Source: Verrucomicrobiaceae bacterium
GTDB lineage: Bacteria > Verrucomicrobiota > Verrucomicrobiia > Opitutales > Intestinicryptomonadaceae
DNA length: 64,000 nt
Direction of reading: 5' to 3'
NCBI GenBank assembly: GCA_015061955.1
Contig: SUVO01000005.1
Coordinates: 62,001-126,000 of the forward strand
The position numbers and the translations under genes were made by a program. Position 1 is the first letter of the stretch; every line of letters begins with the position of its first letter. Positions 32,901-55,701 of this stretch are shown piece by piece. The notes under the pieces were generated by a model that was not told the origin of the DNA, did not search any database, and saw only the letters and a program-made list of their open reading frames with translations.

Positions 32901-33431
32901 AAAATAGAACGTTTCTTTTTTATAGCATTGAGAGAAGCTGTTATAAACGCATTCGTCCATAACGATTATTCATCTGGCGATAGTCCTGTTTTTGAAGTTT
33001 TTTCAGATAGATTTGTAATAACATCTTATGGAGGTTTAATAGATGGATTAAGCAAAAAAGAGTTTTTTAGTGGAATTTCAAAGCCGCGAAACAGAGAGTT
33101 GATGCGAATATTTAAGGATTTGGGATATGTCGAACATTTGGGCTCTGGAATGAATCGAATAATGAAAAAATACGATAAATCCATATTCGAGTTTACAGAT
33201 CACTTCTTAAAAGTAACTTTTCCATTTTCAAAAATTAAAAGTAAGGAGAAAAGTAGGGAGAAAATATTAAATCTCATAAGAGAAAATAGATTCATAACAA
33301 CTTCTGAGCTTGCTTCTGAATTAAGATTATCAACTTCTGCCATAGAAAAGCATATTCGGAATCTTAAATCAGAAGGTATTTTAAGTCGTATTGGTCCAGA
33401 TAAAGGAGGACACTGGGAAATACAGTCATAA
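32901..33431 (+). pseudogene. 5'-truncated ATPase/winged-helix regulator (AlbA_2-HATPase_c_4 type)
   Basis: This is the C-terminal part of an ATP-dependent DNA-binding regulator of the Schlafen-AlbA_2 type. The first recognisable motif, ALREAVINAFVHNDYSS, is the HATPase_c_4 block that normally sits in the second half of a 400-500-residue protein. GSGMNRIMKKYDKS follows, then a winged helix (about 108-165, ITTSELASELRLSTSAIEKH). The frame is open from 32901 after an in-frame TAA and has no ATG; a TTG at 32928 would give 167 residues. The N-terminal DNA-binding half is missing, so I read it as a decayed remnant at the left edge of the island. Confidence 0.7.
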
Positions 33432-33982: not shown

Positions 33983-34570
33983 TTAGTTTCTAACTGACTT
34001 TGTTGCTCCATAAAAAATCAATAAATTTTCAATATCTCTCCAAACCATACTTCTTGCATAGCCCAATGGGGTACAATAGCCATGCTCATCTATTCTAAAT
34101 TGTGCATTCGGGTTTGCTCCGTTTTGAAGTAATAATTTTATTAGCTCGTAGTCTTTATTATAAAGAGCCCAACCTAACGGAGTCCACCTACTACGATATC
34201 TATCAAATTCACAATTATTATATTTCCCCTCTTGGATAAGTTTTTTTGCTAAACTTCTTTTTTTGTTTAAAAGAGCAAAAGCAAGTGATTTTTTGCCTTC
34301 AACCGCTTCTTTTTTTGATACCGGAGGAGAAACAGGGGCAATAGAAGTAATAGAAACTGCATCGGAAGTGCTTTCTTCTCTGTTATAAGAAGGCTTTTTA
34401 TTTTCTTCTTCTTTTGAAAGACTTGTTTTATTATCGATTTTTTTCTTCTTTAATTCTTCAGAAGGATATACATGAAAAACAGTTTCTATTTGTTTGTATA
34501 GATTGTTTACTTCAATTGCTTTTTTGGGGTCTGAGAATTTGTAGAAAGGAGTACTAATTCCAACGGTCAC
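33983..34570 (-). CDS. Ankyrin-repeat protein, last gene of the island operon
   Basis: From its only canonical start (GTG 34568-34570) the product has 195 residues. A charged, low-complexity linker (about 40-95) is followed by two to three ankyrin repeats: RWTPLGWALYNKDYELIKLL with LQNGANPNAQF, and CTPLGYARSMVWRDIENLLI. Ankyrin repeats bind proteins, so it may be a recognition subunit. The same frame stays open upstream to 34975 with protein-like sequence but no ATG, GTG or TTG, so the true gene is probably longer and damaged or unusually initiated (see 34571-34932). It is the seventh and last gene of the operon. Confidence 0.6.
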   Translation of the reverse strand: MTVGISTPFYKFSDPKKAIEVNNLYKQIETVFHVYPSEELKKKKIDNKTSLSKEEENKKPSYNREESTSDAVSITSIAPVSPPVSKKEAVEGKKSLAFALLNKKRSLAKKLIQEGKYNNCEFDRYRSRWTPLGWALYNKDYELIKLLLQNGANPNAQFRIDEHGYCTPLGYARSMVWRDIENLLIFYGATKSVRN

Positions 34571-34932
34571 AGATTCTGTTTTGTACTCTGTTGTGAAAAA
34601 AGTTTCTTTTTTATATTTAATACTTAAAACATCTGATTCGTAAAAATGACCACTAATTTCTAAAGGTGAATCTCCTGAAAATTTTTTCCAATAACGAAGA
34701 TATGTTGTGTTGCGACTTGAAGAAATATAGGATACCCCATTGTCAAACTGAAAAGGAACAGCTCCTTTATATAATATAAATTTTTGATACCAAATTATAT
34801 CATATGTAATATTATTTAAAAAGTTTCTTATTTTTTCTTCAAATGGTTTAGTAAAATGTTTTTTTAACTCGCTAATAACTTCAGACGTGACAATAGTCTT
34901 TTTAATTGTCCTATTCTTTCTTGCCTTTGCAT
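34571..34932 (-). other. Open, start-less upstream extension of the ankyrin frame
   Basis: These bases hold no other gene. The ankyrin frame remains open here for about 120 codons and translates into ordinary-looking protein (segments such as SELKKHFTKPFEEKIRNFL, YDIIWYQKFILYKGAVPFQF, TYLRYWKKFSGDSPLEIS). A tidy ATG immediately follows the upstream gene's stop (34930-34932), but it lies in a different frame that ends after 22 codons. This looks like a frameshift near the 5' end of a gene of about 320 residues, or a sequencing error. Confidence 0.45.
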
Positions 34933-36042
34933 TTATTTCATAAATAAGTTTTTTGTAGAATCTTCCAACAGTATTTCAAAATAAATATCATCAAAATCTT
35001 TATCTTTTAAAGACACCTCTGAAAAATCTCTATCGTGATGCTTCTTTAGATATTCTCTATAATTTGTTTTTAATATATTTATTATGTTTTGCAATTCTAA
35101 AGCTTTAGAAAGATTTAATATTTCCTTAAACGTATAGATGTTCTCTTTGTTAAAATCATTTGATTTAAAAAAAGACTTCAAATGCGTATTTAAATTCGTT
35201 TCATAAAAACTTTTTACTTCTTGATATTGTGGTGTTTTGTAAAAATCAAGATATTCTTTGATATTGTCCACTCCAAGATAATAAATTGTCTTCGATAAAG
35301 GTTCATTTTCTATTTTATTTTTAATCTGATTTTTTAAATCATCATAAATATATTTTTTTTGTATATATGTAAAATATTTAAAACAATCTTTGTATTGGAA
35401 TGCTTGTTTTGTATTATTTGTTTTCTTTATAAAACCATAATATAAGTCAAAAAAATGTTTTTTCTCTGTTTCTGGAATATTTTGGTAAAGTTTGTTAGAA
35501 AAAATTTCTTGGAACTGATTCTTTTCTATTAACTTATAAATGCTAGCTAATTTGTATTTTGAATGTAAATTTAAAGGAGTTGTGTCATAAGTGTTTTCTT
35601 GGCTATCTTTAAAAAACAACATTCTTTTTAAATTTTGATTTTTATTTATAATTCTTTCAATTTTATCTACTAAAGACAAGATACGTTGTTGTGATTCTAT
35701 TGTTTCGCAAAAAGTGAAAACAATGTATAGATCTTTTTCGGGAAGAAGTAATAGTGTATTTTCAGGAATTTCTTCGCAAATGTTTTTTGTTATTGGACAA
35801 GAAAAATCTTTTAATTTTGCTTTTAAATTTAAAAACTGTATTATTTTTTCAACTTTATTCTCTTGGCAAATACGATGATGTAGACTTTTATATGCTTCTG
35901 TATATTCATTTAAAGAATCGCGATCTTTCATTAAACTTGCACATATATACAACTCATCTAAATCCGCGTAATTGTAATTCTCTGCGAAAGAAAAGTAAAA
36001 GAGATTAAAAAAAATCAAAACATATAAAATAAATCTTTTCAT
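34933..36042 (-). CDS. Exported hypothetical protein, island operon
   Basis: Protein of 369 residues with a signal peptide (about 1-20, KRFILYVLIFFNLFYFSFAE). The mature part is highly charged and predicted all-helical, with lysine-rich segments and no recognised domain. It contains four cysteines in the first 85 mature residues (ICASLMK, HRICQEN, DFSCPITKNICEE) that could pair outside the cytoplasm. It overlaps the preceding gene by 4 bases, so translation is coupled. Base composition is very AT-rich, as in the whole operon. Function unknown. Confidence 0.65.
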   Translation of the reverse strand: MKRFILYVLIFFNLFYFSFAENYNYADLDELYICASLMKDRDSLNEYTEAYKSLHHRICQENKVEKIIQFLNLKAKLKDFSCPITKNICEEIPENTLLLLPEKDLYIVFTFCETIESQQRILSLVDKIERIINKNQNLKRMLFFKDSQENTYDTTPLNLHSKYKLASIYKLIEKNQFQEIFSNKLYQNIPETEKKHFFDLYYGFIKKTNNTKQAFQYKDCFKYFTYIQKKYIYDDLKNQIKNKIENEPLSKTIYYLGVDNIKEYLDFYKTPQYQEVKSFYETNLNTHLKSFFKSNDFNKENIYTFKEILNLSKALELQNIINILKTNYREYLKKHHDRDFSEVSLKDKDFDDIYFEILLEDSTKNLFMK

Positions 36043-36815
36043 AGGTTATTTGTGCCATTAATGGTTTTTATATCATTTTGAATTCGTTTACATTCTTCCG
36101 ATATTAAAGATGTAACACCTGAAACTTTTTTAAGCTCTGCTTCTAATATTTTTGAATCAGATTCTGTTTTATGAATAGCGAATAAAATATCGTAAGCTTC
36201 TTTTAAGTCTTGAAGTTTTTTAGTGAAAATACTTTTTATAAATGTGTATGTTATAATCTCTTCTTTTATAATTTCTTTTGCGTTAGGGTCATTTATTTTT
36301 TCCAGTTTTCGTAAAGCTTCTATTTGCTTTTCAGAAATAATAGATATTCGTTGAGTAATTTCATTTTTGCTTTTATACAAATCTGGAAATTTATTTTTTA
36401 TATAGCTTGATGGTTTTATTTTTTCTTTTCTAACTTTTACTTTTTTTTCTATAACAGGTTTTGGCTGATCAATATTGGAACCAGATAATATATCAGTGTT
36501 TTGAACAACAAAAGGCATAATTATTGAAAAAAGAGAAATAATTAATACCGGAACTATAGGATAGTTAAATACATTGTTTTCTTTTAGAAAAAGCAAAGAT
36601 AAAATACCAATAAACAAAAAAAGAAAATATCCCATCCCAAAGATACAGATAGACAAACAAAAAGAAGCTTTAATATTTGTTATATATAAATCTGATTGAG
36701 TTAGATAAAAGGACACATAAAAAACAAGACTAAAAATAAAAAATATAACAAAAAATATAACAAAAAATTTTAACCAATCCTTTATAATATTTACGATATT
36801 AGAAATATTGTACAT
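36039..36815 (-). CDS. Membrane protein with cytoplasmic coiled coil, island operon
   Basis: Protein of 258 residues. Three hydrophobic segments (about 15-35, 45-70, 82-105) are followed by a basic linker (VIEKKVKVRKEKIKPSSYIK) and a long coiled-coil-like C-terminal half (about 145-258) rich in Glu, Lys and Ile. No catalytic motif is visible. It is one of three consecutive membrane plus coiled-coil proteins in this operon, which suggests they assemble with each other at the membrane. The gene starts 24 bases after the preceding one and overlaps the exported protein gene by 4 bases. Confidence 0.65.
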   Translation of the reverse strand: MYNISNIVNIIKDWLKFFVIFFVIFFIFSLVFYVSFYLTQSDLYITNIKASFCLSICIFGMGYFLFLFIGILSLLFLKENNVFNYPIVPVLIISLFSIIMPFVVQNTDILSGSNIDQPKPVIEKKVKVRKEKIKPSSYIKNKFPDLYKSKNEITQRISIISEKQIEALRKLEKINDPNAKEIIKEEIITYTFIKSIFTKKLQDLKEAYDILFAIHKTESDSKILEAELKKVSGVTSLISEECKRIQNDIKTINGTNNL

Positions 36816-36839
36816 AGTATCTCTGTTTGTTATTTTTAT

Positions 36840-37388
36840 TTATTCTTTTGATTTTTCGATAGTCAAAATAGTATCTTGATTCGTTTTTATTAAATTGTCT
36901 AATTGAGAGAGAACATTTAATGCAACTTTTTCAAGTACATCATTTTTTCCACTCATTGCATACAATTTTTCAATTTCTATATTTAATGAAATAATATTTT
37001 TTTCAATTTCTTTATTTTTTGCTTTTAATGATATTATTTTTTTTTCAAAAATATCTATAGCCCTTTGTGTTTCAATTTCTGATGCATATCTATTAAATTC
37101 ATCTATAAGTTGTTTGTTTTTTTCTTTGATTGAAAGAAGAAATCTTCTTTTTTTAAAGATAAGAGGAAAATTTGCGTTAACATATTCAACAATATCATCA
37201 TGCAATCCTTCTGAATTATCAACAATAACACCTTTACGATCTTCTTTAGAAGTTTGAATCGAAAAAGATGAAAATTGTGCATTTTCATCTTTTTTCGAAA
37301 AATATTCTGAACAAGATGTAAAATTCCTTAAAAACAACAAGAAAAAAAATAGAATTGTTACTGATAAAAGAGAAATTAGTATATTCAT
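36840..37388 (-). CDS. Single-pass membrane coiled-coil protein, island operon
   Basis: Protein of 182 residues. It has an N-terminal hydrophobic segment (about 2-22, NILISLLSVTILFFFLLFL) that could be an uncleaved anchor. A short polar linker follows, then a helical coiled-coil region from about 80 to the end with heptad-like Ile/Leu spacing (EIEKNIISLNIEIEKLYAM). No known domain. It starts 4 bases after the preceding gene. Its architecture resembles its neighbours at 36039 and 37393 without obvious sequence identity. Confidence 0.62.
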   Translation of the reverse strand: MNILISLLSVTILFFFLLFLRNFTSCSEYFSKKDENAQFSSFSIQTSKEDRKGVIVDNSEGLHDDIVEYVNANFPLIFKKRRFLLSIKEKNKQLIDEFNRYASEIETQRAIDIFEKKIISLKAKNKEIEKNIISLNIEIEKLYAMSGKNDVLEKVALNVLSQLDNLIKTNQDTILTIEKSKE

Positions 37389-37392
37389 CTTT

Positions 37393-37962
37393 TTATTTTG
37401 TGTCCATCAGCGCAACGTCAAGCTCAGCGTTAGCTTTATCTAAATCAACATAAATAGATTCAATTACCTTTTCTAAATCTCTTCCACTTGTTAAACTTTT
37501 AGCATCCGCACCTAAAACAGAAGTTGCAGCTTTAGTAATAGACATTTCAGCTTCCACAATTTCTAAATTAGCTCTAAGTTCTTCAAATTTTGCATTTGCT
37601 GTTTTGTATGCCTTTGTTGCACGGGCATCTACTTCATCCAACTTGTTTATTAAAGCTTGATAACGAAGTTTATGTTCTTCTGTCAATTTAGGATTTTGTA
37701 AGTGGCGATTTATTGTGCGACGCACTGTTTTTACTTTTATAAGTTTGAGTTTTATATCTTCAATTCGTTTAATTGCTAATTTCTCTGCCACTTCAATTTT
37801 TCCGACAGCATCGACCATTTTATTTTCAGCATTGTCTTTTGCTACTTCAATAGCAGCTTTTGCCTTTTCGCTACCGAAAAAGTAAAATCCACCAGCAATT
37901 AATGCAATTCCTGCAATTATTCCTAATATTAACGATAATATTGATCCTTTACGTGCTTTCAT
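37393..37962 (-). CDS. Membrane-anchored coiled-coil protein, island operon
   Basis: Protein of 189 residues from ATG 37960-37962; an upstream TTG (37992) would overlap the preceding gene. A basic start (MKARKGS) precedes one transmembrane segment (about 6-28, LSLILGIIAGIALIAGGFYF). A long Ala/Lys/Glu-rich coiled coil of about 150 residues follows (KAKAAIEVAKDNAENKM, DEVDARATKAYKTANAKFEE). The pattern is reminiscent of phage-shock or tape-measure-like helical proteins, but no homology can be claimed. It lies 4 bases from both neighbours. The codon choice is less extreme in AT than in the genes downstream. Confidence 0.65.
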   Translation of the reverse strand: MKARKGSILSLILGIIAGIALIAGGFYFFGSEKAKAAIEVAKDNAENKMVDAVGKIEVAEKLAIKRIEDIKLKLIKVKTVRRTINRHLQNPKLTEEHKLRYQALINKLDEVDARATKAYKTANAKFEELRANLEIVEAEMSITKAATSVLGADAKSLTSGRDLEKVIESIYVDLDKANAELDVALMDTK

Positions 37963-37966
37963 AATT

Positions 37967-39364
37967 TTATTTTTTGTTTCTTTTTGTTTCAATTTCTTTT
38001 AATCTTTCTCTGTATTTTTTGTATAAACTATCCCAATCAAAATCTATTTTATTAGTGTATAAATCCTTCAATTTTGATTTAATTAGAATAGTTCCTATGC
38101 GGTCTGCCTCTTCTTTAATTTGACTTGGGTTAAATTTGTCTAGAAATTGAGGCTGATACTTTATAAGATCTGCTATATCTGAACCACGAAAAGCAGCCCA
38201 TGAAAAACATCTATTAGAAAACTGAGGTTGCTTTGATAATATTTTAACCCAGTCTTGGACATCGAACTTTTTCCAAATAAAGAACTCATCGCATTTATCG
38301 TCAAACTGAGGTTGCTTTAATAACAATGCCGCCCAGTCTTCATGTCTAAAATTCCATTTGTCGCATTTATTGGCAAACTGAGGACGTTTCGCTAATAATA
38401 GAGACCAGTCCATATGTTCCCATCCGTTGTATTCATCACATTTTTTTAAATATTGCAATTGCACAGATAACAATTTGCCCCAATGTTCAAACTGACACCA
38501 TCCATAATATTCTTCAAATTTTTTCTCAAAACTTGGATTTTTTGTTAATAAACGTGCCCAGTGTTCGGACTTTAATTCTCTCCATTCTCCATTTATATCA
38601 AATCTATCCACAAATTGTGGTTGATTACACAATATCTCAACTTTTCCATCAATATCTATACAATTCCAGTCAAATTTGTCTATAAATTGCGGGTGTTTTG
38701 ATACTAATTTTGCGATATCAATTGATGCCCAAGGTTCCCCTCTACTATTTTTGTCTACCCGCCCATTCCTATCAAAACTGGGGTTCCTCCAACCGTTAAA
38801 TTCATCACATAAATTCGCAAATTGTGGTTGTGATAGTAATAGAGAACTCCAACAGGTATCGTTGAATTCTAAAAAGATATCTTTCAAATTGTTATGGTAG
38901 TAGCTTTCAATATTAGTCGCATCTATAATTTGTGGCTGTTTTTTAAGTAAATTCACAAAACTGATGCAACCAGCACCAAAATGTCCTCTGTATTCTAAGT
39001 TATAAATTAAATCTGAAATGTCGCCAATAAATCGTATAAAATTTGGTTGATACGACAATACATATAGCCAATGCCTAGCATTAACTTGATGTTTGTCATT
39101 GCTGTATCCTGGAGTAGACCCAAGGAAGAATTCGTCCCAATAGTCCCAAACACAGCTTGAACGTTCTTCAAAAAACTGAAGATATTTATAAATATATTCA
39201 GGATACATAGCTATTATCTCATGCCACATATAACCTATAGGCATCCTTTTTAATGTAGGGTCTGTTTCTATAATTTCCCTAATCGAAATTGGAACTGAAG
39301 CATTTTTTTTGCTTTCGTCTTCAAGCGTATATGGCTGAAATAATTTTTTTATAATATTAAGCAT
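37967..39364 (-). CDS. QPQF-repeat protein, island copy (465 aa)
   Basis: Protein of 465 residues built almost wholly from about 12 copies of a 23-35-residue repeat with consensus DWxxLLxxQPQFxxKCxxW. Examples are SQPQFANLCDEF, NQPQFVDRFD, KRPQFANKCDKW and KQPQFSNRCFSW. No signal peptide or membrane segment is seen. The N-terminal 50 residues and the basic C-terminal 70 residues (DLYTNKIDFDWDSLYKKYRE) lack the repeat. It has no PGVFE-MLS-LRKL cap, unlike the two relatives at 49920 and 52094. The repeats probably stack as an alpha-solenoid binding scaffold; this is inferred. I know of no named family. It sits between a nuclease-like gene and a membrane coiled-coil gene. Confidence 0.75.
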   Translation of the reverse strand: MLNIIKKLFQPYTLEDESKKNASVPISIREIIETDPTLKRMPIGYMWHEIIAMYPEYIYKYLQFFEERSSCVWDYWDEFFLGSTPGYSNDKHQVNARHWLYVLSYQPNFIRFIGDISDLIYNLEYRGHFGAGCISFVNLLKKQPQIIDATNIESYYHNNLKDIFLEFNDTCWSSLLLSQPQFANLCDEFNGWRNPSFDRNGRVDKNSRGEPWASIDIAKLVSKHPQFIDKFDWNCIDIDGKVEILCNQPQFVDRFDINGEWRELKSEHWARLLTKNPSFEKKFEEYYGWCQFEHWGKLLSVQLQYLKKCDEYNGWEHMDWSLLLAKRPQFANKCDKWNFRHEDWAALLLKQPQFDDKCDEFFIWKKFDVQDWVKILSKQPQFSNRCFSWAAFRGSDIADLIKYQPQFLDKFNPSQIKEEADRIGTILIKSKLKDLYTNKIDFDWDSLYKKYRERLKEIETKRNKK

Positions 39365-39376
39365 AATTTATGTGTT

Positions 39377-40546
39377 TTATTGTTTTGTATTCATTCTTTT
39401 AGGGTTCATTTTAAAGAAAGCCTTAATAACGTTCTTAATATTATCAAAAGAATAATACGATTTTAGCTTTTCACGATCATACCAATACAACATATCAGGA
39501 GCAAACTTTCCGATAGGAATATATTCTTCCTTAAAAATAGACTCATCCCATTTTACCCCAATGTCATTTAAAAGATTTTTCAGATCTTTTTGGGATATAC
39601 AATTTCTCTTTTTTGAGCTTTTGATAATACTATTTGCACTTGCAAACTTTTTTAAATCCAATTGTTTTTGAGTTAATTTCACATAATATCTTATTTGACC
39701 ACCTTGAATCTGAATCCCTGCACATCCTTTATTTTTATTGCTTTTGTCTTTAGCGTTACTGGGGAATCCTTCTTCACAATGAAAATCATTTCGCCATATA
39801 GAAATTAAGGCATCTTTTCTTGTAAATCCAAATTCATAATGATAGTCATTTTGTTTAAAATATTTTTGTAGAAAATCTTGAAGGCGACTCATACGAGCCT
39901 TGAAATAAAAGTCTCTTAATTTAACTTCTTCCAAAAAATTATATTCGTGATTATTTGAAACAAAATCATATATATCTTTTTTGTTTTTAATCAGCGAATT
40001 TATAAATTTCAAATATTCGACATAGCTATTCTTTAAATATTTTATATGCTTACGATCTGAAGTCTTGCAAAAGTTAAATTCATTAAATCCATCTAATACT
40101 TTTATTATTTTACTGTAATAAACAATCTTCCAATTAGAATTTTCAGATGTCATAAAGCGAACACAATCAAACAACAACAAAGTTCCCGAAAAATTATACC
40201 CCCTATATATTTCTGAAACTTTATTCTTGTAATCTTTAAGTTGTTCTTGTGATGGATATGATGTTATTTTATTTTCTATAACAAAAATAGATTGAGTCGA
40301 TTTGTCTTTGAAAAATATGTCAAAATGATTTTTTTCACGAATAGCTTTAATTCCTTTTGGCATTTTTTCACCAAACAAGACTTTAAATAACTTTTCTTTA
40401 GCTTGTTCATTTAAAACATCATTAAAGAGCCAGACTAAAACATTAGAATGAAATAACTCCTTATTACCGAGAGAAAATACATACATGGGATTTTGCTTTA
40501 ATAAACCCACATCCTTAATAATATTAGAAATCTCTCTCTTAATCAT
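39377..40546 (-). CDS. PD-(D/E)XK nuclease-superfamily protein, first gene of island operon
   Basis: Protein of 389 residues. The N-terminal domain shows the PD-(D/E)XK pattern: E30 in GNKELFHSNVLVWL, D76 in HFDIFF, then E91-N-K93 in FVIENKI, followed by a glutamine at about 100. This layout matches the PDDEXK nuclease family often found in defence or mobile loci. The C-terminal half is basic and of unknown fold. The active-site residues appear intact, so DNA or RNA cleavage is plausible. The ATG (40544-40546) lies only about 10 bases after a predicted -10 element. It heads a seven-gene operon with gaps of 4-24 bases or overlaps. Confidence 0.75.
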   Translation of the reverse strand: MIKREISNIIKDVGLLKQNPMYVFSLGNKELFHSNVLVWLFNDVLNEQAKEKLFKVLFGEKMPKGIKAIREKNHFDIFFKDKSTQSIFVIENKITSYPSQEQLKDYKNKVSEIYRGYNFSGTLLLFDCVRFMTSENSNWKIVYYSKIIKVLDGFNEFNFCKTSDRKHIKYLKNSYVEYLKFINSLIKNKKDIYDFVSNNHEYNFLEEVKLRDFYFKARMSRLQDFLQKYFKQNDYHYEFGFTRKDALISIWRNDFHCEEGFPSNAKDKSNKNKGCAGIQIQGGQIRYYVKLTQKQLDLKKFASANSIIKSSKKRNCISQKDLKNLLNDIGVKWDESIFKEEYIPIGKFAPDMLYWYDREKLKSYYSFDNIKNVIKAFFKMNPKRMNTKQ

Positions 40547-40712: not shown

Positions 40713-40955
40713 TTGTTAGACGATGAGGGATTAAGTATTTGTGAGCTTGCCGAAAGAGAAAATCTCAAACATGGAATGATAGGGAGACAGCTCAAAATAC
40801 TTGATAGGCTTTCAGCAAGTGCAATCGAATTGATTCTCAAACTTCGATATGAACGCCAAACAAAGCAATTGACGTTTCGTAAGCTGGAGGAGATTTCAAA
40901 ACCCCCTCAAGCCAACCACATAAAGCTCATCAAACAACTGGTAAATTTGAGATGA
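40713..40955 (+). pseudogene. Recombinase C-terminal fragment (HTH region)
   Basis: An 80-residue frame starts only at a TTG and has no ATG before residue 22. Its sequence (LSICELAERENLKHGMIGRQ, then LSASAIELILKLRYERQTKQ and LTFRKLEEI) follows the pattern of the helix-turn-helix tail of serine recombinases: eiA..eg.s..yv.r.L.LA.LaP.iveaI..G.qP..Lt...L. The catalytic domain is absent, so I read it as a remnant. It ends 28 bases before an attC-like site, so an alternative reading is a small gene cassette. Confidence in homology is moderate. Confidence 0.45.
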
Positions 40956-40983
40956 TTCTAAATTGCATAAGTTGTTGATAAGT

Positions 40984-41078
40984 GTCTAACACTTCTTCCT
41001 GAAAATTAGCCGATTTTCGACCAAATATCGACTTTTTGAGACTTTTAACAAGGCTCTTATCACGAACCTGCGTTAGAC
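40984..41078 (+). other. Integron attC-like recombination site
   Basis: The 95-base segment begins with GTCTAAC (40984-40990, fits RYYYAAC) and ends with GTTAGAC (41072-41078, fits GTTRRRY); the two are exact reverse complements. The flanking bases continue an imperfect inverted repeat (CCTGA against TCACGAACC, AGCC against GGCT), as the L boxes and stem of attC sites do. A second GTTAGAC at 40715-40721 would define a 357-base cassette holding the 80-codon frame. No integron integrase is in the window. Confidence 0.45.
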
Positions 41079-41170
41079 ATTTTTTACTCTTTTTAAAGTG
41101 GCGGCGAACGGCTAACGCCGTTGCACCTTGGCTTTGAGGTTAAAGGTATAATGAATAGTGGTTATAAAAC

Positions 41171-41205: not shown

Positions 41206-41206
41206 G

Positions 41207-41287
41207 TACTCGGGACGGGACTTGAACCCGTACGATTTTACTCGGCGGATTTTAAGTCCGCTGCGTCTACCATTCCGCCACCCGAGC
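41207..41287 (-). tRNA. tRNA-Leu (anticodon UAA)
   Basis: A complete 81-base cloverleaf. The acceptor stem GCTCGGG pairs with CCCGAGT, with a G-T pair at the end and discriminator A. The D-arm region is GGCGGAATGGTAGACGC. The anticodon stem is GCGGA/TCCGC with loop CTTAAAA, so the anticodon is TAA (UAA). A short class II variable arm (CGAGTAAAATCG) is present, as expected for leucine tRNAs, and the T-loop is TTCAAGT. CCA is not encoded. It sits at the right edge of the island, a usual place for integration. Confidence 0.95.
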
Positions 41288-48506: not shown

Positions 48507-49733
48507 TTATTTTGCAATTTTTAGTTTTTTCAAGATTATATCAATATCTTCTTTTTCTTTGTTTTTATCGGTTTCAAAAGAAATAAAAAATACATCGCTA
48601 TTGGTAATTTTAGGATCTTCCCAAATCATATCAACTTGCATACAATGAACACCCAAAACATTACCGGAAACTGCAATTTCTCTACGAACAGAATAACTGC
48701 TATAACCTAAACTTACTCCACCAAAATATTTTAACAACTCTATCACATAAATTCTTTCTCCATACTGACGAACTTTTTCGTACCCCAAAAGCATTATATT
48801 AGATGAACTTCCTATAGAGCCACCTGAATTCGAAAAATACTCCACTAAAAACAATCCATTTGAAAACTTAGCCAATTGACGATAGCCCTTCCGGCAACCT
48901 GTCTCTTTCTCTACAGACATCACAACGTCACCCCTTATTTCGAGATCACCTTTGCACGAAAATCTGTTACGCTGTAAAGGATCTAACATATAAACGCCTT
49001 GACCATCATCGGATAACCAACCTACAAATTCATATAAGCACTCAGGTGATACAAGGTTAGCTTTGTCAATATAAAGACCGTCCATTTCTTTATAAGAACC
49101 ATCTTCGTCTTTTTTCTCTTTTACAAATGGTGCAATGTTTGCCTTATTAGGATCGAAAATTCTTGGCATGTCCTTTTCGTCTGTAACGAGATGTTCTAAG
49201 AAAAAATTATTTCTTACAACTTCATAAATATTGGTCTCGAAATAAAATGCATAAATAACACGAGCATCTAAATCTTTCTTTTTAGAAGCCGATAACCACC
49301 ATTCTTTTGCAATATCTATATTCTTTTTAACACCGACTCCTTTGTGATGAAGTAAGCCCAACATAACCATTGCATCTGAATTTCCAGACTTTGCCGATTT
49401 TATCAACATATCGTAGGCTTTTGAAAACTCTTGTTTTACACCTACTTTCTTTGCCAATTCGTTATAGCCTTTAATATTGTAATAATCTGGTCCGTTTACT
49501 CTATTGTAATAATTAAATTCAACAACAGTAGCATCGCCGATATGAAATTTTACAAATTCCATTAGAGCACTTTTATTATTTTTTGCAATTCCCTGCTCTA
49601 CAACTTTCATTTTTTCAACAAATGCTTCTTTGGTAGAAGTTTGTTTTAAAATGTTTCTATACGATATTGTTTCGGTTGCAAATAAAGAGCAGCTAAGCAT
49701 TAAAAATGTCGAGATTATAAAATGTTTTTTCAT
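48507..49733 (-). CDS. Secreted Sel1-repeat protein
   Basis: Exported protein of 408 residues with a signal peptide (1-19, KKHFIISTFLMLSCSLFA). Sel1-like helical repeats lie at about 85-170, clearest in AYDMLIKSAKSGNSDAMVML followed by GLLHHKGVGVKKNIDIAKEW. The C-terminal half (about 205-400) is beta-rich with no recognised domain. Sel1 repeats mediate protein contacts. It lies 186 bases downstream of the QPQF-repeat gene on the same strand; whether it belongs to that operon is uncertain. Confidence 0.75.
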   Translation of the reverse strand: MKKHFIISTFLMLSCSLFATETISYRNILKQTSTKEAFVEKMKVVEQGIAKNNKSALMEFVKFHIGDATVVEFNYYNRVNGPDYYNIKGYNELAKKVGVKQEFSKAYDMLIKSAKSGNSDAMVMLGLLHHKGVGVKKNIDIAKEWWLSASKKKDLDARVIYAFYFETNIYEVVRNNFFLEHLVTDEKDMPRIFDPNKANIAPFVKEKKDEDGSYKEMDGLYIDKANLVSPECLYEFVGWLSDDGQGVYMLDPLQRNRFSCKGDLEIRGDVVMSVEKETGCRKGYRQLAKFSNGLFLVEYFSNSGGSIGSSSNIMLLGYEKVRQYGERIYVIELLKYFGGVSLGYSSYSVRREIAVSGNVLGVHCMQVDMIWEDPKITNSDVFFISFETDKNKEKEDIDIILKKLKIAK

Positions 49734-49919
49734 AGATAATAAATTTTTGTATCTGATTTTTTATTCGTAAAATTGTAAAATTTTTCTAAGCAAATTTAAA
49801 ATTATAATTATGCACAAATATTATACCACTGCGACTAATAATAAAACATCGCTACCACATAACAGATATATAAATTTTATTTTTGTTTCTATATTTTATC
49901 ATTAATTTTGTTTATTTTT

Positions 49920-52076
49920 TCACTTACACAGCTTTCGTAAACTTGAAAGCATGTGCTTTTCTTCAAAAACGCCTGGGTGTTTAGCTTCGAGTTCAGACCA
50001 TTGTTCAAAAGAAAACAAATCTAAAACTTCTTCGGGAAAAAATTCTAAAAGCTTTGGATTATACCAAAGAATATCGCTCCAACATTCAGCTATATCATCT
50101 TTATCTTGATAAGAATCTTCTAAATCCGACAACTCATCAATTATGTAATTCCAATCGCAATTAAGAATAAAACGTGGTTGAGTCAATAATAAAGAATTCC
50201 AATTATGTGAATCAAAGTTTTGCCAAAGGTCGCATTTATCGGCTAAATGTGGATACTCAGACAAAATCCTGACCCATTGCTCTTCATTAAAATCTTCCCA
50301 GCATATTTTTTCACATGCCGGATTTATCAATGCTAATTCGAACCAATCCTTAATAGAAAACCAATCCCAACACAAACATTCAGACTCTTTTGCAACATCT
50401 GATTTCATCATAGCAATAGAAACCTTTGGGCAATATTTCCATAATTGAGGCTGTACGTTTAAAACGAAATCCCAATTTAAAGATTCAAAAGATTCAAAAT
50501 CGTAATGAAAGTCTTTTATCATTTCTGGAAACAACATTAATATTGCTGTTTGTCCGTCGACAAACTCTTTTGCTTTTTTTATAAGAGAGGTTTGTTTTTC
50601 TAAAAGATTTACCCAATCTTCTATCGAAAAATCCTCAAAACTGCAATCTGAACAATCATGAAACTTGTCTACTAAATGTGGATAAATCGACAACAACGCA
50701 ACCCATGTAGAAATTTCAATTTTATCCCAATGGGTATCCTCAAATCTACCAATACACTTACACTTTTTTATGTTAGAAACATCTTCATTTATTTTCTTTA
50801 CTGACATTTCTGTATTGTACACCCACAATTCTGGTTGATTGTACAACAGTATTTCCCAATTTAAATCATCAAAATCTTCCCATATATTGCATTTGTCGGC
50901 AAAATGTGGTTGTTCAGATAATAAATTAATCCAATCTTCTGTATTAAAATCTTCCCATACGTTGCATTGCTGAAAAAACTCTGGCTTGTTGCGCAAAATA
51001 GAACTCCAGCCCGAAGCAGATTTAGTAGCGAGTTCAAAAAATTGTGGCTGTGCCGACAGCAATTTATTCCATTCGTACGAATCAAAAAGATTTAAGTCGT
51101 ATTGTATTTGATTGAATTTTTCGATAAATTGTGGCTGTTTTGATAAAAGCGTTGTCCAATCGGAATAGTCAAAATCTTTCCATTTATTACATTTATCACT
51201 AAATTGTGGCTGTGCCGATAAAAGCTGACTCCAATCCCAAGAATAAAGAGAATCCCATTGTGAAAATTTGCTGATTAGTTGTGGTTGAAACGACAACACC
51301 TTGCACCAATCTGCAATTCTAAATTCTTTTAACAATTTGCATTCTGTAATAAAATGAGGTTGCTTAGTTAATAAATTTACCCAATCACCTAATTTAAAAT
51401 TCTTCCATTTGCTACATTTGTTTGCAAACTGTGGACATACTGCAAGCAAGTTTACCCAATCATTTACTTTGAATCTACGCAAACACTTGCAATCACTTAT
51501 TTTTTCTGGATATTTTTTTAATTCTTCAATAGAGCCACAAACTGAATAAATCCAGAATTGAGGTTGTTTAGCTAATAATAGGTTCCAGTCTTCTTCATCT
51601 AAAATTCCCCATATCGATTGTATATCATCGACTTCATCGACAAGTTGTGGTTGAGCAGATAACAGTAAAGCCCACTCGTATGAATCTAAATCGTACCATT
51701 TATTAAATTGATTAGCCAATTGAGGATGAACCATCAGAATTTTAAGCCAATGATCTGTTCTAAATCTGCGTCGACATTTACATTCTGCGTATTTTGAAAC
51801 ATCAGCAATTATAGTTTTTACAGATTCTTCTGGGAAATAGGCCCAAAATTGAGACTGATGAAAAAGTAGATTGTTGATATCTGTTGAATTAAAATCTTTC
51901 CATAATTTACATTTATTTGCAAATTTTGGACATACACTTAACATTTTAACCCAATTCTGAACACTTAAATTTTCCCATAATCCATATGTATCGAAATCGG
52001 CCGAAAGCGTGTTGTTGTTTAATATGGCTTCAACAAGCTTTGAGGGGGGTAATTTCTTTAATTGTTTAACTTCCAT
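49920..52076 (-). CDS. Large QPQF-repeat protein (718 aa)
   Basis: Protein of 718 residues made of about 23 copies of the DWxxLLxxQPQFADKCxxW repeat, 23-40 residues apart. Some copies are diverged (QPHFADKC, YPHLVDKF, QPELWVYN). There is no signal peptide, membrane segment or catalytic motif. The last 35 residues (FEQWSELEAKHPGVFEEKHM, then LSSLRKLCK) form a cap nearly identical to that of its neighbour at 52094. The repeats probably form an alpha-solenoid. Variation at the non-consensus positions is large, as expected for a binding surface. It lies 17 bases after the 342-residue relative, in an operon that begins with MoxR and vWA genes. No named family is known to me. Confidence 0.78.
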   Translation of the reverse strand: MEVKQLKKLPPSKLVEAILNNNTLSADFDTYGLWENLSVQNWVKMLSVCPKFANKCKLWKDFNSTDINNLLFHQSQFWAYFPEESVKTIIADVSKYAECKCRRRFRTDHWLKILMVHPQLANQFNKWYDLDSYEWALLLSAQPQLVDEVDDIQSIWGILDEEDWNLLLAKQPQFWIYSVCGSIEELKKYPEKISDCKCLRRFKVNDWVNLLAVCPQFANKCSKWKNFKLGDWVNLLTKQPHFITECKLLKEFRIADWCKVLSFQPQLISKFSQWDSLYSWDWSQLLSAQPQFSDKCNKWKDFDYSDWTTLLSKQPQFIEKFNQIQYDLNLFDSYEWNKLLSAQPQFFELATKSASGWSSILRNKPEFFQQCNVWEDFNTEDWINLLSEQPHFADKCNIWEDFDDLNWEILLYNQPELWVYNTEMSVKKINEDVSNIKKCKCIGRFEDTHWDKIEISTWVALLSIYPHLVDKFHDCSDCSFEDFSIEDWVNLLEKQTSLIKKAKEFVDGQTAILMLFPEMIKDFHYDFESFESLNWDFVLNVQPQLWKYCPKVSIAMMKSDVAKESECLCWDWFSIKDWFELALINPACEKICWEDFNEEQWVRILSEYPHLADKCDLWQNFDSHNWNSLLLTQPRFILNCDWNYIIDELSDLEDSYQDKDDIAECWSDILWYNPKLLEFFPEEVLDLFSFEQWSELEAKHPGVFEEKHMLSSLRKLCK

Positions 52077-52093
52077 GATAAAAAAGATTTATA

Positions 52094-53122
52094 TTAAAGT
52101 TTACGAAGGGTTGAAAGCATGCGCTTTCCTTCAAAAACTCCAGGGTATTGGGCTTCAAGTTCTTCCCACTGTTTTTGGGTCAATTTATCATATATTCTAT
52201 TAGGACACTTATTAGCAAATTGAGGTTGAGAGGACAAGAGGTTGTACCAATCAAGATATTTAAACTTTCTCCAGCATTTGCATTCGCGACATTTATCAGC
52301 AAATTGTGGCTGGACGGATAAGAGATTGATCCAATCACCAGACTCAAACTCATTCCACTTACTACATTCATCTGCAAGTTCTGGATTTGATTGTAAGATA
52401 GCAACCCAGCCGGCTTTAAATCCTTTAGCTTTTTCTGCAAATTGTGGTTGGGTGGATAAAAGACGAGACCAAACCCCTGAATGAAACCTTTCCCACTCAT
52501 TTGCAGTAGACTTGTCGGCAAATTGTGGTTGGGCTTCTACGAGAATACTCCAATCGGCAGAATTAAGCCTCCCCCAGCCGTTGTATTCAGTACACTTGTC
52601 GGATAATTGTGGTTGCATTAGTAAAAGTTCTCTCCAATACCAAGAAGTAAATTCATGCCATTTATCGCACTTATCAGCAAATTGAGGTTGAGATGATAAG
52701 AGTTCGCTCCAATCCCAACGTCCAAACATTCTATAGCATTTACATTCATTTGCAAGTTCAGGTTTTATTGCTAAAAGTCCAGCCCAGCCATGCGAATATT
52801 CTTTAGCTTTTTCTTGAAATTGTGGCTGGGCAGACAAAAGTTTAATCCAATCTGCAGAATAAAACTCATCCCACTTTTCACATTTATTCGCAAATTGTGG
52901 TTGTGTAATTAAAATATGTTTCCAACCGAAAGCACTAAACATTTGCCATTTGTTGCATTTGTCAGCAAATTGCGATTGAACAATTAAAAGATTAATCCAA
53001 TCACCTGAAGAAATTTTATCCCACAAATTTAATCGATCGAATTCTGCAACATCAATATTCCCTTGTTGGATAATTTCAACAATTTGGAAAGAACTAATAT
53101 TATCTAAATTCAAGTTATACAT
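52094..53122 (-). CDS. QPQF-repeat protein (342 aa)
   Basis: Protein of 342 residues with about 12 repeats, the most regular set in the window: QPQFADKC, QPQFANKC, QPQFQEKA, KPELANEC, QPQLSDKC, QPQFAEKA, NPELADEC. Repeat-to-repeat similarity is also high at DNA level (GCAAATTGTGGTTG-like blocks on the plus strand), which suggests recent expansion by duplication. It starts MYNLNLDNISSFQIVEIIQQ and ends with the cap YPGVFEGKRMLSTLRKL. It lies between the vWA gene (67 bases) and the 718-residue relative (17 bases), so all four genes are probably co-transcribed. Confidence 0.78.
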   Translation of the reverse strand: MYNLNLDNISSFQIVEIIQQGNIDVAEFDRLNLWDKISSGDWINLLIVQSQFADKCNKWQMFSAFGWKHILITQPQFANKCEKWDEFYSADWIKLLSAQPQFQEKAKEYSHGWAGLLAIKPELANECKCYRMFGRWDWSELLSSQPQFADKCDKWHEFTSWYWRELLLMQPQLSDKCTEYNGWGRLNSADWSILVEAQPQFADKSTANEWERFHSGVWSRLLSTQPQFAEKAKGFKAGWVAILQSNPELADECSKWNEFESGDWINLLSVQPQFADKCRECKCWRKFKYLDWYNLLSSQPQFANKCPNRIYDKLTQKQWEELEAQYPGVFEGKRMLSTLRKL

Positions 53123-53189
53123 ATTTTATTTTTGATAGAAATAACAACATTTATTTAGAGATAAAAAACACAAGTATCATTTTTTAATA

Positions 53190-54506
53190 CTATCGTCGAT
53201 TGTTCATTTTAATTGTTTTTATTTTGGCGTTTTTGAGTGTAGATTCATCGCCGTCTTTCGAGATTATCGCCAAGCACTTTTTAGGCATAATCGGATCACC
53301 TTCGATATAGCCATCGGTTAGATAAATAATCAAACTTTCTGTATTGCGATTTCTATGTTTCTCTAAATATTCTTGTACGCAAGAAATATGTGTACCACCG
53401 GTCGAGTGAATATTTTTTGCTGGGGTGAAAAGTTGGCGAAGGTTTTTACGCGTAAAGACTTCGTCGTTTTTCTCGTCAACTTCTGTCGACCAATACAAAC
53501 GACGTATTGAAATTTCGCTCGCTGCTTTTGCAACGCCTACAACTTCGCTCAAGAACTCTCGCAACTCTTCTTCGCCGATACTACCCGAAACGTCGATACA
53601 AACAGTTACGCCCAATGGCTTACGCAAAATCTTTGGCTCGTAAACCTTAATAGCATACGATTTCTTTGCTGGTGTACTATACGAATAATCGAACGGAATT
53701 AGCTCGATTAAATGTTTACGCAAAACTGCGCGCCAATCGATTTGTGGCTTAAGAATTGAGTCGATATATCTACCATACCAACATCCTCCTCCACCGTAAT
53801 CTTTATTTGGCTGAACGCTTTGTTGAAAGATATCTGCGCCGATAAGTGTTTCGTTCCACTTCGATTGTTCTTCTAATTTTTCAGCTTCGGCTAGAATTTC
53901 TTTGAAATCGTGATTATCAAATCCTTCAGCAATTTGCTTTTTGCCTTTACTGTTTCCTGTTTTACCACTATCATAAGAAAGGTTTTCGTCTTTTAAAAGT
54001 GGATAAATTTCGTCGTAGATTTCAATGCTCGATTTATTTCTACATTTTATTTTATGACGTTTTTTATTTTTTATAAAAACAAACTCGCCACTATTTCTAT
54101 CGGGAGCAAAACCTGAAATTGAGCTTGAATTATTGCCTTTACCAGTATCCAAATTTAACTCGGTATTCATTGGCAAATCCATATTTTCAAGGTTTACGAT
54201 AATATCGTTTACCTCTAAATCGGCAGCAAAATTCATTATTGATCTATCTACCGTATCGCGAAAATATATAGTGTGCAAAAACACTGCGTGCAATGCCTCG
54301 TGCGACAACACTGCAAGCAAATTTGCATCAGTCATTTTTCTGATAAAATCTTTGTTGTACGAAACATTACATTTTTCATCAATGCAAAGCGTATCAATAT
54401 TTGGATTTTCCGAAATATTTAAACGTGCAACAATATACCCAAAGAACGGGAATTTCATAAAAAGTCCCGCCTTTGCTGTTTCTATTCGCAATTGATGTTC
54501 TTCCAT
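53190..54506 (-). CDS. DUF2201 metallopeptidase-like/vWA protein
   Basis: Protein of 438 residues from ATG 54504-54506, 1 base after the ATPase gene; TTG 54518 would overlap it. The N-terminal DUF2201_N domain has H69-E70-A-L-H73 (LSHEALHAVFLH), a possible zinc site, with DLEVNDII after it. The C-terminal vWA-like domain has the MIDAS motif D305-V-S-G-S309 (VCIDVSGSI), a threonine in GGTHIS and YLTDGYIEGD. DUF2201 proteins are regularly paired with MoxR-type ATPases, as here. The pair is thought to act as a chaperone-like or regulatory machine; the substrate is unknown. Confidence 0.88.
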   Translation of the reverse strand: MEEHQLRIETAKAGLFMKFPFFGYIVARLNISENPNIDTLCIDEKCNVSYNKDFIRKMTDANLLAVLSHEALHAVFLHTIYFRDTVDRSIMNFAADLEVNDIIVNLENMDLPMNTELNLDTGKGNNSSSISGFAPDRNSGEFVFIKNKKRHKIKCRNKSSIEIYDEIYPLLKDENLSYDSGKTGNSKGKKQIAEGFDNHDFKEILAEAEKLEEQSKWNETLIGADIFQQSVQPNKDYGGGGCWYGRYIDSILKPQIDWRAVLRKHLIELIPFDYSYSTPAKKSYAIKVYEPKILRKPLGVTVCIDVSGSIGEEELREFLSEVVGVAKAASEISIRRLYWSTEVDEKNDEVFTRKNLRQLFTPAKNIHSTGGTHISCVQEYLEKHRNRNTESLIIYLTDGYIEGDPIMPKKCLAIISKDGDESTLKNAKIKTIKMNNRR

Positions 54507-54507
54507 T

Positions 54508-55701
54508 CTACTGAACAATCTTGTTTAACACTGCCGCATGGCGATCCTGCAAAAGTTTAAAACAATCTTTATTTTTAGTTATTATTTCCAAAACTTCTTT
54601 TACTTTGTTTTGAGCTTTTATTTGTTTCCAAGCCAAAACAAATAAGTTTGATGGCAGATAAACAATAACTGTAATAAGTTGTACGAGTTTCTTATTCTTT
54701 TCGTCAGCCGACAACTTTTTGTCTTTGAGAACCGACAAAATTCTTTCGGTACAACCACCAATAATTGCATAGCGTTTTTCAGTATCGTAAAGTGAATTAT
54801 CGGCAACGCTTTCTGGATTTGCCAAAATCTTAGTAAAGTCCAAGTTTTGATAAACGCTTAAATACGCTTTGAATTGAACTGTCCAACCATTACCAACGCA
54901 ACCAGCTATTGCATCAAACAAGAATGGTGTAATTTCCAACCCTTTTGAATCTTTAGCAAACATATTGATGATTTTTGAAGCACGTTCTATGCCACGGGGC
55001 GTTACATGTTTATCAGAATCGTTTTCTGAAAGATGATGAATCCACGACTCCTTAAATGTGCAGAAAGAATAAATCATCGGATGACAATGTTGAGGAGCCC
55101 ACTCATTGAGCCAAGCTTGTGAATCGAAAGCAACTTCAAGCTCTGCAAAACGGTCTTTGAGTGGATTTGGCATATCGTAAACGATGTCGGTATCTCTTGT
55201 AGTATTGCCAGCAGCGACGATATTAACGCCTGGTGAAATGTGTCGGTCAGAAATTACCCTATCGTTGATAATCTGATATGCAGACGCTGCAATTTGTGGT
55301 GCTGCGAGATTTATTTCGTCTAAGAAAAGTGTACCACAAGCGTCTGGACGTGTAATGTACATCACCCAAGACCACGGAATTGTTTGTAAACATGGAAGTT
55401 CTTGTGTGTTGAAAATATTGGGGATACCACGAATATCACTTGGTTCCATTTGCGATAAGCGAATATCAATTAACGCAAAATATTTTGATGGATTTTTCAA
55501 CGCATCAAGCTTTACTTCATCTGAAGAAGCCATCCAATCGATGTAAGTACGTTCGGGATATTTTTCAGCCTTATCTTTTGCTGAACTTCTGACAATGTCA
55601 GATTTTCCAATTCCAAACGTTCCGTAAATCATAAGTGGAACATTAGCTTTGTCGAAAAGTTCAATATGTTTTTTTAGTTCACCTATTTTTATGTTTCTCA
55701 T
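54508..55701 (-). CDS. MoxR-type AAA+ ATPase
   Basis: ATPase of 397 residues and first gene of the operon. Walker A is G27-T-F-G-I-G-K33-S34. The insert-like DIRGIPNI segment is typical of MoxR enzymes. Walker B is L-F-L-D128-E129-I-N, sensor 1 is NIVAAGNTTRD, and an arginine-finger region DRFAELEV follows. The C-terminal 150 residues are helical. MoxR ATPases act with vWA-domain partners, and the gene at 53190 fits that role. The 300 bases upstream contain a short gene remnant and AT-rich sequence. Confidence 0.9.
   Translation of the reverse strand: MRNIKIGELKKHIELFDKANVPLMIYGTFGIGKSDIVRSSAKDKAEKYPERTYIDWMASSDEVKLDALKNPSKYFALIDIRLSQMEPSDIRGIPNIFNTQELPCLQTIPWSWVMYITRPDACGTLFLDEINLAAPQIAASAYQIINDRVISDRHISPGVNIVAAGNTTRDTDIVYDMPNPLKDRFAELEVAFDSQAWLNEWAPQHCHPMIYSFCTFKESWIHHLSENDSDKHVTPRGIERASKIINMFAKDSKGLEITPFLFDAIAGCVGNGWTVQFKAYLSVYQNLDFTKILANPESVADNSLYDTEKRYAIIGGCTERILSVLKDKKLSADEKNKKLVQLITVIVYLPSNLFVLAWKQIKAQNKVKEVLEIITKNKDCFKLLQDRHAAVLNKIVQ

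Follow-up and report, generated by a model that had tools for sequence, protein, structure and literature searches.

A predicted PDDEXK_4 nuclease and a QPQF-repeat protein form a candidate conflict pair beside a serine-recombinase remnant in a Verrucomicrobiota genome

Results

Gene content of the block

We analysed a stretch of 64,000 nucleotides from a Verrucomicrobiaceae bacterium (contig SUVO01000005.1, positions 62,001 to 126,000), called the window below, and in it a block of minus-strand genes that opens with a PD-(D/E)XK nuclease gene, followed directly by a gene for a protein with repeats carrying the motif QPQF. Coordinates are those of the window, in which the operon reads from 40546 to 34933; other loci, genomes and contigs are numbered with the prefixes L, G and C. 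A preliminary description of this DNA had presented the block as seven genes on one strand with gaps of 4–24 bases or overlaps, an account that is partly confirmed and mostly right. The open reading frame (ORF) listing holds six real, tightly packed ORFs, spaced by 12, 4, 4 and 24 bases and then by a 4-base overlap; the seventh, an ankyrin frame, does not follow this spacing and is treated separately below. The block contains the following features.

39377..40546, minus strand: predicted PD-(D/E)XK nuclease, PDDEXK_4 (PF14281), 389 amino acids (Pfam, PADLOC, alignment of 7 sequences)
37967..39364, minus strand: QPQF-repeat protein, 465 amino acids, repeats from about residue 105 to 405 (repeat units, hydropathy)
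37393..37962, minus strand: coiled-coil-1, from ATG 37962 (listed start TTG 37992), one N-terminal hydrophobic segment (ORF list, hydropathy)
36840..37388, minus strand: coiled-coil-2, N-terminal hydrophobic segment (ORF list, hydropathy)
36039..36815, minus strand: membrane protein, three to four hydrophobic segments and a C-terminal helical part (hydropathy)
34933..36042, minus strand: 369-amino-acid protein, probably exported, 6 cysteines (ORF list; signal-like start by eye)
33983..34975, minus strand: open ankyrin frame with ankyrin repeats near its end (family-library scans, frame analysis)
34948..34954, minus strand: A AAA AAC heptamer, candidate slippery site in frame with the exported ORF (frame analysis)

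The 12-base gap separates the nuclease and QPQF genes, the 24-base gap coiled-coil-2 and the membrane gene, and the overlap joins the membrane and exported ORFs. Coiled-coil-1 and coiled-coil-2 are 4 bases apart, as are QPQF and coiled-coil-1 if the latter begins at ATG 37962 (the listed TTG start overlaps the QPQF ORF). Along the block GC content runs.27,.33,.33,.23,.24,.23 and.33. The 23–24% of coiled-coil-2, membrane and exported genes bears out the statement that the block is very AT-rich, and because QPQF and coiled-coil-1 stand at 33% the block may be composite. Hydropathy agrees with two single-pass coiled-coil proteins, each with one hydrophobic segment, and with a membrane protein described as three-pass. 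For the protein described as exported and cysteine-containing the cysteines are there, but its start resembles a signal peptide by eye only and went unflagged by the hydropathy scan at the threshold used. Coiled-coil-1, coiled-coil-2 and the membrane protein look alike by eye; shuffles gave z values of −0.2 to 0.3, and we rejected them as paralogues.

A nuclease with an intact predicted active site

The first gene had been read as a PD-(D/E)XK protein with E30, D76, E91 and K93 in place, and this holds. The protein passes the Pfam cut-off for PDDEXK_4 (1.9e-7, 31.7 bits against 22.3), and an alignment of seven nucleases (those of the window, L026, L046, L029 and L037 and two from L028) shows no variation at E30, D76, E91, K93, Q102 and Y106, which make up E-D-ExK and Q102xxxY106. 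The QxxxY motif is a mark of RecB/Cas4-type nucleases. Judged by its sequence, this is a genuine PDDEXK_4 protein with an intact predicted active site. In PADLOC it matches the candidate PDC-S26 at 1.7e-14, over residues 30–180 of 389 only and with no cut-off shown. Close relatives occur in G017 and G029 among 35 other relatives, and in 2 of 387 genomes of a phylum sample at 1e-8, namely the window's own and G055. Viral contigs gave little or nothing, plasmids and phages one weak match each, and the nuclease profile found three PDB entries, all at E 0.7 or worse.

The QPQF repeat

The repeats claimed for the second protein are also real. QPQF proteins are repeat arrays in which the motif recurs mostly at intervals of 24 (273 cases), 25 (150) or 28 residues (39), with 21 (20) and other spacings besides, and the consensus is x-D-W-x-x-L-L-S-x-Q-P-Q-F-A-D-K-C-D-x-W. 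In 146 units of 25 residues, W6, L9, L10, A17, C20 and W23 are conserved and positions 2–5, 7–8, 11–12 and 24 vary; the search pattern itself fixes P14 and limits positions 13, 15 and 16. Hydropathy finds no hydrophobic segment in the window operon's protein.

This repeat appears to be the novel part of the operon. Pfam gave nothing over cut-off in the repeats of five QPQF proteins (the window operon's, two more of the window, and those of L078 and L066), the repeat profile matched no PDB entry, and the window operon's protein had no match in NCBIfam or PHROGs. PADLOC gave that protein a marginal match to PDC-M62A (0.0022, over residues 397–459 only) and gave nothing for three other QPQF proteins. 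We found no publication on a QPQF repeat protein in bacteria; among the matches listed, other mentions of QPQF were unrelated, and so was a paper listed for defence systems and repeat proteins in Opitutales.

QPQF proteins occur in 43 of the 387 sampled phylum genomes at 1e-8, and the window operon's protein was matched in 7 of 88 nearer relatives, its own genome included; a scan of named genomes gave 41 loci. Records are labelled Lentisphaeria/Lentisphaerae, Kiritimatiellae, Verrucomicrobia or Opitutales, some only 'uncultured bacterium', one Puniceicoccaceae and one Flavobacteriales, and many titles name rumen or gut samples. Searches of phages and plasmids were empty or nearly so. Viral contigs yielded one locus (L079), near the end of its record and with the same score as a protein of G001. 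Some family members have other features: L045 7565–9166 and L046 3667–4665 cover a QPQF protein whose N-terminal part is long and a neighbouring protein that matches DNA gyrase B weakly, below the cut-off, and the ends of L078 QPQF proteins look ankyrin-like by eye, the one sent to Pfam giving no match.

QPQF genes near nucleases and other conflict-type genes

The order of the first two genes is kept elsewhere. In G017 (L026), from another genus of the family, a nuclease that shares 41–42% identity with that of the window has a QPQF gene behind it. Contig C6 of the window's genome, G177 and G186 also carry PDDEXK_4 nucleases no more than two genes away from a QPQF gene, and G004 has one at a distance of about 2 kb, on the other strand. 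Nuclease and QPQF genes are within two genes of each other at five loci: in the window, L026, L028 and L126 the nuclease is upstream on the same strand, and in L046 the QPQF gene comes first. In L028 the two overlap by 13 bases. All aligned nucleases from the window, L026, L028 and L046 are among these close neighbours; the aligned L029 nuclease is about 2 kb from a QPQF gene, on the other strand, and that of L037 has none near. The expectation of a conserved gene order is thus borne out for the nuclease and QPQF genes but not for the downstream genes, which have no convincing relatives where searched.

PF14281 gave 36 matches, spread over 32 of the 387 phylum genomes, and none in the 14 control genomes; it occurs together with QPQF in 9 of the 387 (Fisher p 0.0045, the two 387-genome sets being assumed to be one and the same). 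These nine genomes contain 11 nucleases, of which 6 have a QPQF gene no more than 3 kb away; the expected share for each nuclease is about 1%, an expectation that rests on QPQF locus counts read by hand among the matches listed (P about 4e-10). Leaving out the window's genome, the figure is 3 of 8 (P 2.6e-5); both P values take no account of a preference of both gene kinds for islands, and no control repeat family was compared.

A neighbour survey covered 63 loci and 82 distinct QPQF proteins, with labels assigned within three genes by models seeded from these same loci. PDDEXK_4 nucleases were labelled at 5 loci, the five named above; DUF262/GmrSD genes, paired or single, at 4 (L036, L044, L046, L136); MoxR with DUF2201-VWA at 5 (a second cluster in the window, L050, L078, L142, L144); and at one, in a Lentisphaeria genome, a TIR domain is fused to QPQF repeats (L066 4954–6339). 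When 20 proteins from such loci were compared with Pfam, 7 had no match at 0.001, and the rest include GmrSD_N, TIR_2, SLOG, uracil-DNA glycosylase, AAA, three PDDEXK_4 and DUF2201. A further QPQF locus, L067, has an ankyrin neighbour.

Two clusters can be described gene by gene. On contig C6, L028 8172–13666 holds in a row a uracil-DNA glycosylase, an unknown gene, a PDDEXK_4 nuclease, a QPQF gene, a small gene and a second PDDEXK_4 nuclease; it lies near a recombinase-like ORF, and parts of it are 94–97% identical to L029 of a sister genome. In the second QPQF cluster of the window (48507–55701) consecutive genes encode a MoxR-type AAA protein, a DUF2201 VWA/metallopeptidase, two QPQF proteins and a Sel1 protein, and similar MoxR-VWA-QPQF clusters stand in L050 and L078.

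The downstream genes and the ankyrin frame

The genes behind the QPQF gene are sparsely represented elsewhere. A search of 87 other genomes for coiled-coil-1 gave a single weak match (G052, 25%, 3e-5), and coiled-coil-2 had no relative in the retrieved loci or family libraries, the only places searched for it. In 59 other genomes, among them carriers of QPQF, neither the membrane nor the exported protein had a match; the search for the membrane protein lacked a positive control. The exported protein was also missing from all 35 other relatives, in a search that did match its own genome. Neither protein was found in viral contigs, and none of the four downstream proteins (coiled-coil-1, coiled-coil-2, membrane, exported) had a homologue in the retrieved loci beyond the window copies.

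The ankyrin frame is open from 34975 and runs back into the end of the exported ORF, which it overlaps by about 43 bases in the −1 frame. Its first ATG, GTG or TTG is the GTG at 34570, 362 bases beyond the exported ORF's end at 34933, and a seventh gene 4–24 bases from its neighbour was rejected because no usable start precedes 34570. Upstream of that point the codon-likeness score of the ankyrin frame is +0.27, against −0.18 and −0.51 for the other two frames. The frame was scanned whole in PHROGs, where it gives ankyrin-region matches, and from GTG 34570 onward in Pfam, PADLOC and NCBIfam.

The A AAA AAC heptamer offers one route into this frame. In-frame runs of six A are frequent in this DNA: the six genes together have 19 in 1868 codons, and the exported gene has 4 in 370. 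The chance of such a heptamer in an overlap of about 14 codons is about 15% by our estimate, and no stimulatory fold stands out downstream (z −0.29). Because such runs are common and a downstream fold is missing, the heptamer is weak evidence for programmed −1 frameshifting from the exported ORF into the ankyrin frame. The frame may reflect frameshifting, a mutation, or a run of A that was misassembled; we found no relative able to decide between them.

Mobile-element context

The surroundings of the block contain these features.

40713..40955, plus strand: 80-amino-acid ORF, remnant of the C-terminal part of a large serine recombinase; 94% identity with the end of a 651-amino-acid recombinase ORF on contig C34
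40716..41079, plus strand: right end of a mobile element, 349/364 bases identical to L166 5873–6236, with the same end point as the C34 element
41206..41287, minus strand: tRNA-Leu(TAA), probable insertion hotspot (ARAGORN; tRNA-Leu beside a ligase-type gene in five of nine sister loci)
32928–33431: truncated HATPase_c_4 and winged-helix ORF, left island edge (Pfam)

Mobile remnants had been proposed at both ends of the block. On the right this is upheld by the recombinase remnant, but a mobile nature of the HATPase_c_4/winged-helix ORF on the left is unsupported. By alignment, 40716–41079 is homologous to the end of the C34 recombinase gene and the DNA behind it; on C34 the recombinase has a NikA/MobC-like mobilisation gene upstream and is followed by a tRNA-Leu(GAG). 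In the window the element ends about 130 bases before tRNA-Leu(TAA). Among nine sister loci at the same ligase-type gene, ARAGORN finds a tRNA-Leu in five (four TAA, one TAG), once on the opposite strand and once with a small ORF between. The remaining four, which include one at a contig end, show none. Where the contig continues, the genes beyond the tRNA differ. The window block abuts the remnant of a serine-recombinase element at tRNA-Leu. We looked for a left attachment copy or other element end and found none, so that the operon's position inside the element can only be inferred. Contig C13 of the same genome (L167 1195–14000) carries a serine recombinase, a TrwC relaxase, two methyltransferases, a type II restriction enzyme in two ORFs, and Gabija GajA/GajB.

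Discussion

Our preferred reading, to which we assign a probability of roughly 0.4, is that the two proteins form a defence pair, in which the QPQF protein serves the nuclease as sensor or scaffold. The block would be cargo beside the serine-recombinase remnant at tRNA-Leu, with a functional core of two genes, the PD-(D/E)XK nuclease and the QPQF gene directly downstream. The QPQF protein, which has no membrane segment, is probably an alpha-helical solenoid and could serve as the recognition or assembly half, using the variable positions on its fixed framework to bind a trigger that probably comes from a phage or plasmid. Such binding would release or position the nuclease, which would then cut DNA. 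The coiled-coil, membrane and exported proteins might act as an envelope tether or relay, or be independent cargo.

The recurrent proximity of the two genes and the intact predicted active site are among the observations behind this proposal; we also count for it that QPQF occurs near GmrSD, MoxR-VWA or SLOG genes and once fused to TIR, and that the C13 element carries type II restriction-modification and Gabija genes. By these associations, a defence role of the nuclease–QPQF pair is partly supported: plausible, and unproven. The preliminary description had gone further, to a membrane-linked module with an effector nuclease and repeat-based sensing. The effector-plus-repeat conflict module stands by association, but its membrane-linked half depends on adjacency and is unsupported because the membrane and exported proteins are in none of the 59 genomes, coiled-coil-1 has one weak match and coiled-coil-2 has no relative among the retrieved loci and family libraries.

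Beyond the limits of the proximity test given above, several observations count against a defence pair. A close relative of the window nuclease stands beside a QPQF gene in one other genome only, and in G029 such a relative has no QPQF gene near it. L028 and L029 supply three of the six close pairs and share DNA at 94–97% over two 1.3-kb stretches, so the independent events are fewer than the count; near-identical DNA is likewise shared within L042/L046 and L126/L131, and QPQF loci are therefore not all independent. Only 13 distinct loci carry a label and 50 of 63 carry none, and the MoxR-VWA loci L142 and L144 belong to one genome, with QPQF on the opposite strand. The C13 recombinase is 40% identical to the window remnant over 63 residues only. 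Because islands collect defence genes, the proximity could itself be hitchhiking.

Two alternatives take the same neighbourhood differently. One is that QPQF is an antidote, a repeat-type inhibitor of the upstream nuclease in a toxin–antitoxin or toxin–immunity pair. The usual order of the genes, nuclease first, would suit this, and the tandem arrangement of QPQF genes in L050 and in the window is reminiscent of immunity arrays; in the part of the literature consulted, ankyrin, HEAT and LRR proteins are among immunity proteins and REase-fold domains among toxins (PMC3482391). However, Pfam, NCBIfam and hydropathy show no trafficking, pre-toxin or toxin-processing domain and no hydrophobic export signal on the nuclease, the QPQF gene is first in L046, and the TIR-fused, MoxR-VWA and GmrSD contexts do not call for one shared antidote. 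On balance we regard an antidote as rather unlikely.

The other is hitchhiking: QPQF would be a common scaffold repeat with unrelated jobs, both gene kinds would collect in islands, and the block would be a composite without joint function. The unlabelled majority of QPQF loci, the uneven GC content of the block and the lack of convincing relatives for the downstream genes all fit. Yet the spacing of nuclease and QPQF genes is operon-tight both in the window and in L028, and the proximity recurs with divergent nucleases, which leaves this explanation doubtful.

That the block is decaying cargo, no longer functional, is quite improbable: the recombinase is cut down to 80 amino acids, the ankyrin frame lacks a start and a QPQF gene on contig C6 is in two pieces, but six ORFs are intact and the catalytic residues are kept. 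It is very unlikely that the nuclease pair stands apart and that the other three proteins (exported, ankyrin and membrane) act on competitors or eukaryotes, either at the envelope or extracellularly; the signal-like start of the sixth ORF, the ankyrin repeats in the frame behind it and the lipoprotein-like start of the L032 QPQF protein point that way, but 79 of 82 distinct QPQF proteins have no N-terminal hydrophobic stretch at the threshold used.

A wider version of the defence-pair proposal is speculative, and we think it unlikely in full. In it, QPQF would be an undescribed helical repeat that provides the recognition module for a family of conflict systems of Verrucomicrobiota from gut and rumen, interchangeable between PD-(D/E)XK, GmrSD-type, MoxR-VWA and TIR partners and varied by repeat duplication; here it would link the nuclease to a membrane-anchored coiled-coil assembly and an exported protein with a frameshifted ankyrin tail. 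If true, a repeat family that has so far been overlooked would point to defence-type loci in a little-studied gut and rumen phylum, and a QPQF profile would be a sequence handle for collecting such loci and learning what they recognise.

Comparison with known systems

Four known or candidate systems resemble the pair in part. PDC-S26 shares the PDDEXK_4 domain, with E-D-ExK and QxxxY, and the C6 nuclease of the window's genome matches it near full length (1.6e-70, residues 3–386 of 392), whereas the window nuclease, paired with QPQF, matches it in part. PDC-S26 is itself only a PADLOC candidate, and we found no publication under that name, nor on PF14281, on PDDEXK_4 in defense, or on DUF2201 with MoxR.

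In polymorphic toxin–immunity systems, as far as the parts consulted go (PMC3482391), a nuclease followed by a repeat protein, and ankyrin repeats, are familiar; the window nuclease differs in having no trafficking or processing domain, and the repeat falls outside Pfam families over cut-off. Coiled-coil nuclease tandems (CoCoNuTs; PMC11090510, consulted in part) likewise combine a nuclease with coiled-coil proteins in one operon, but the McrB-type GTPase and McrC of CoCoNuT/McrBC systems have no match in the window operon by Pfam, PADLOC or NCBIfam.

In MoxR-vWA ternary conflict systems, superstructure-forming repeats and coiled coils are common in the effector position, according to the parts of PMC7159879 consulted; its main text mentions neither 'DUF2201' nor 'ankyrin'. 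In the window (49.9–55.7 kb), L050 and L078, MoxR-AAA and DUF2201-VWA genes are next to QPQF genes. The window operon itself has neither MoxR nor VWA by Pfam and PADLOC, both lying instead in the separate cluster at 53.2–55.7 kb.

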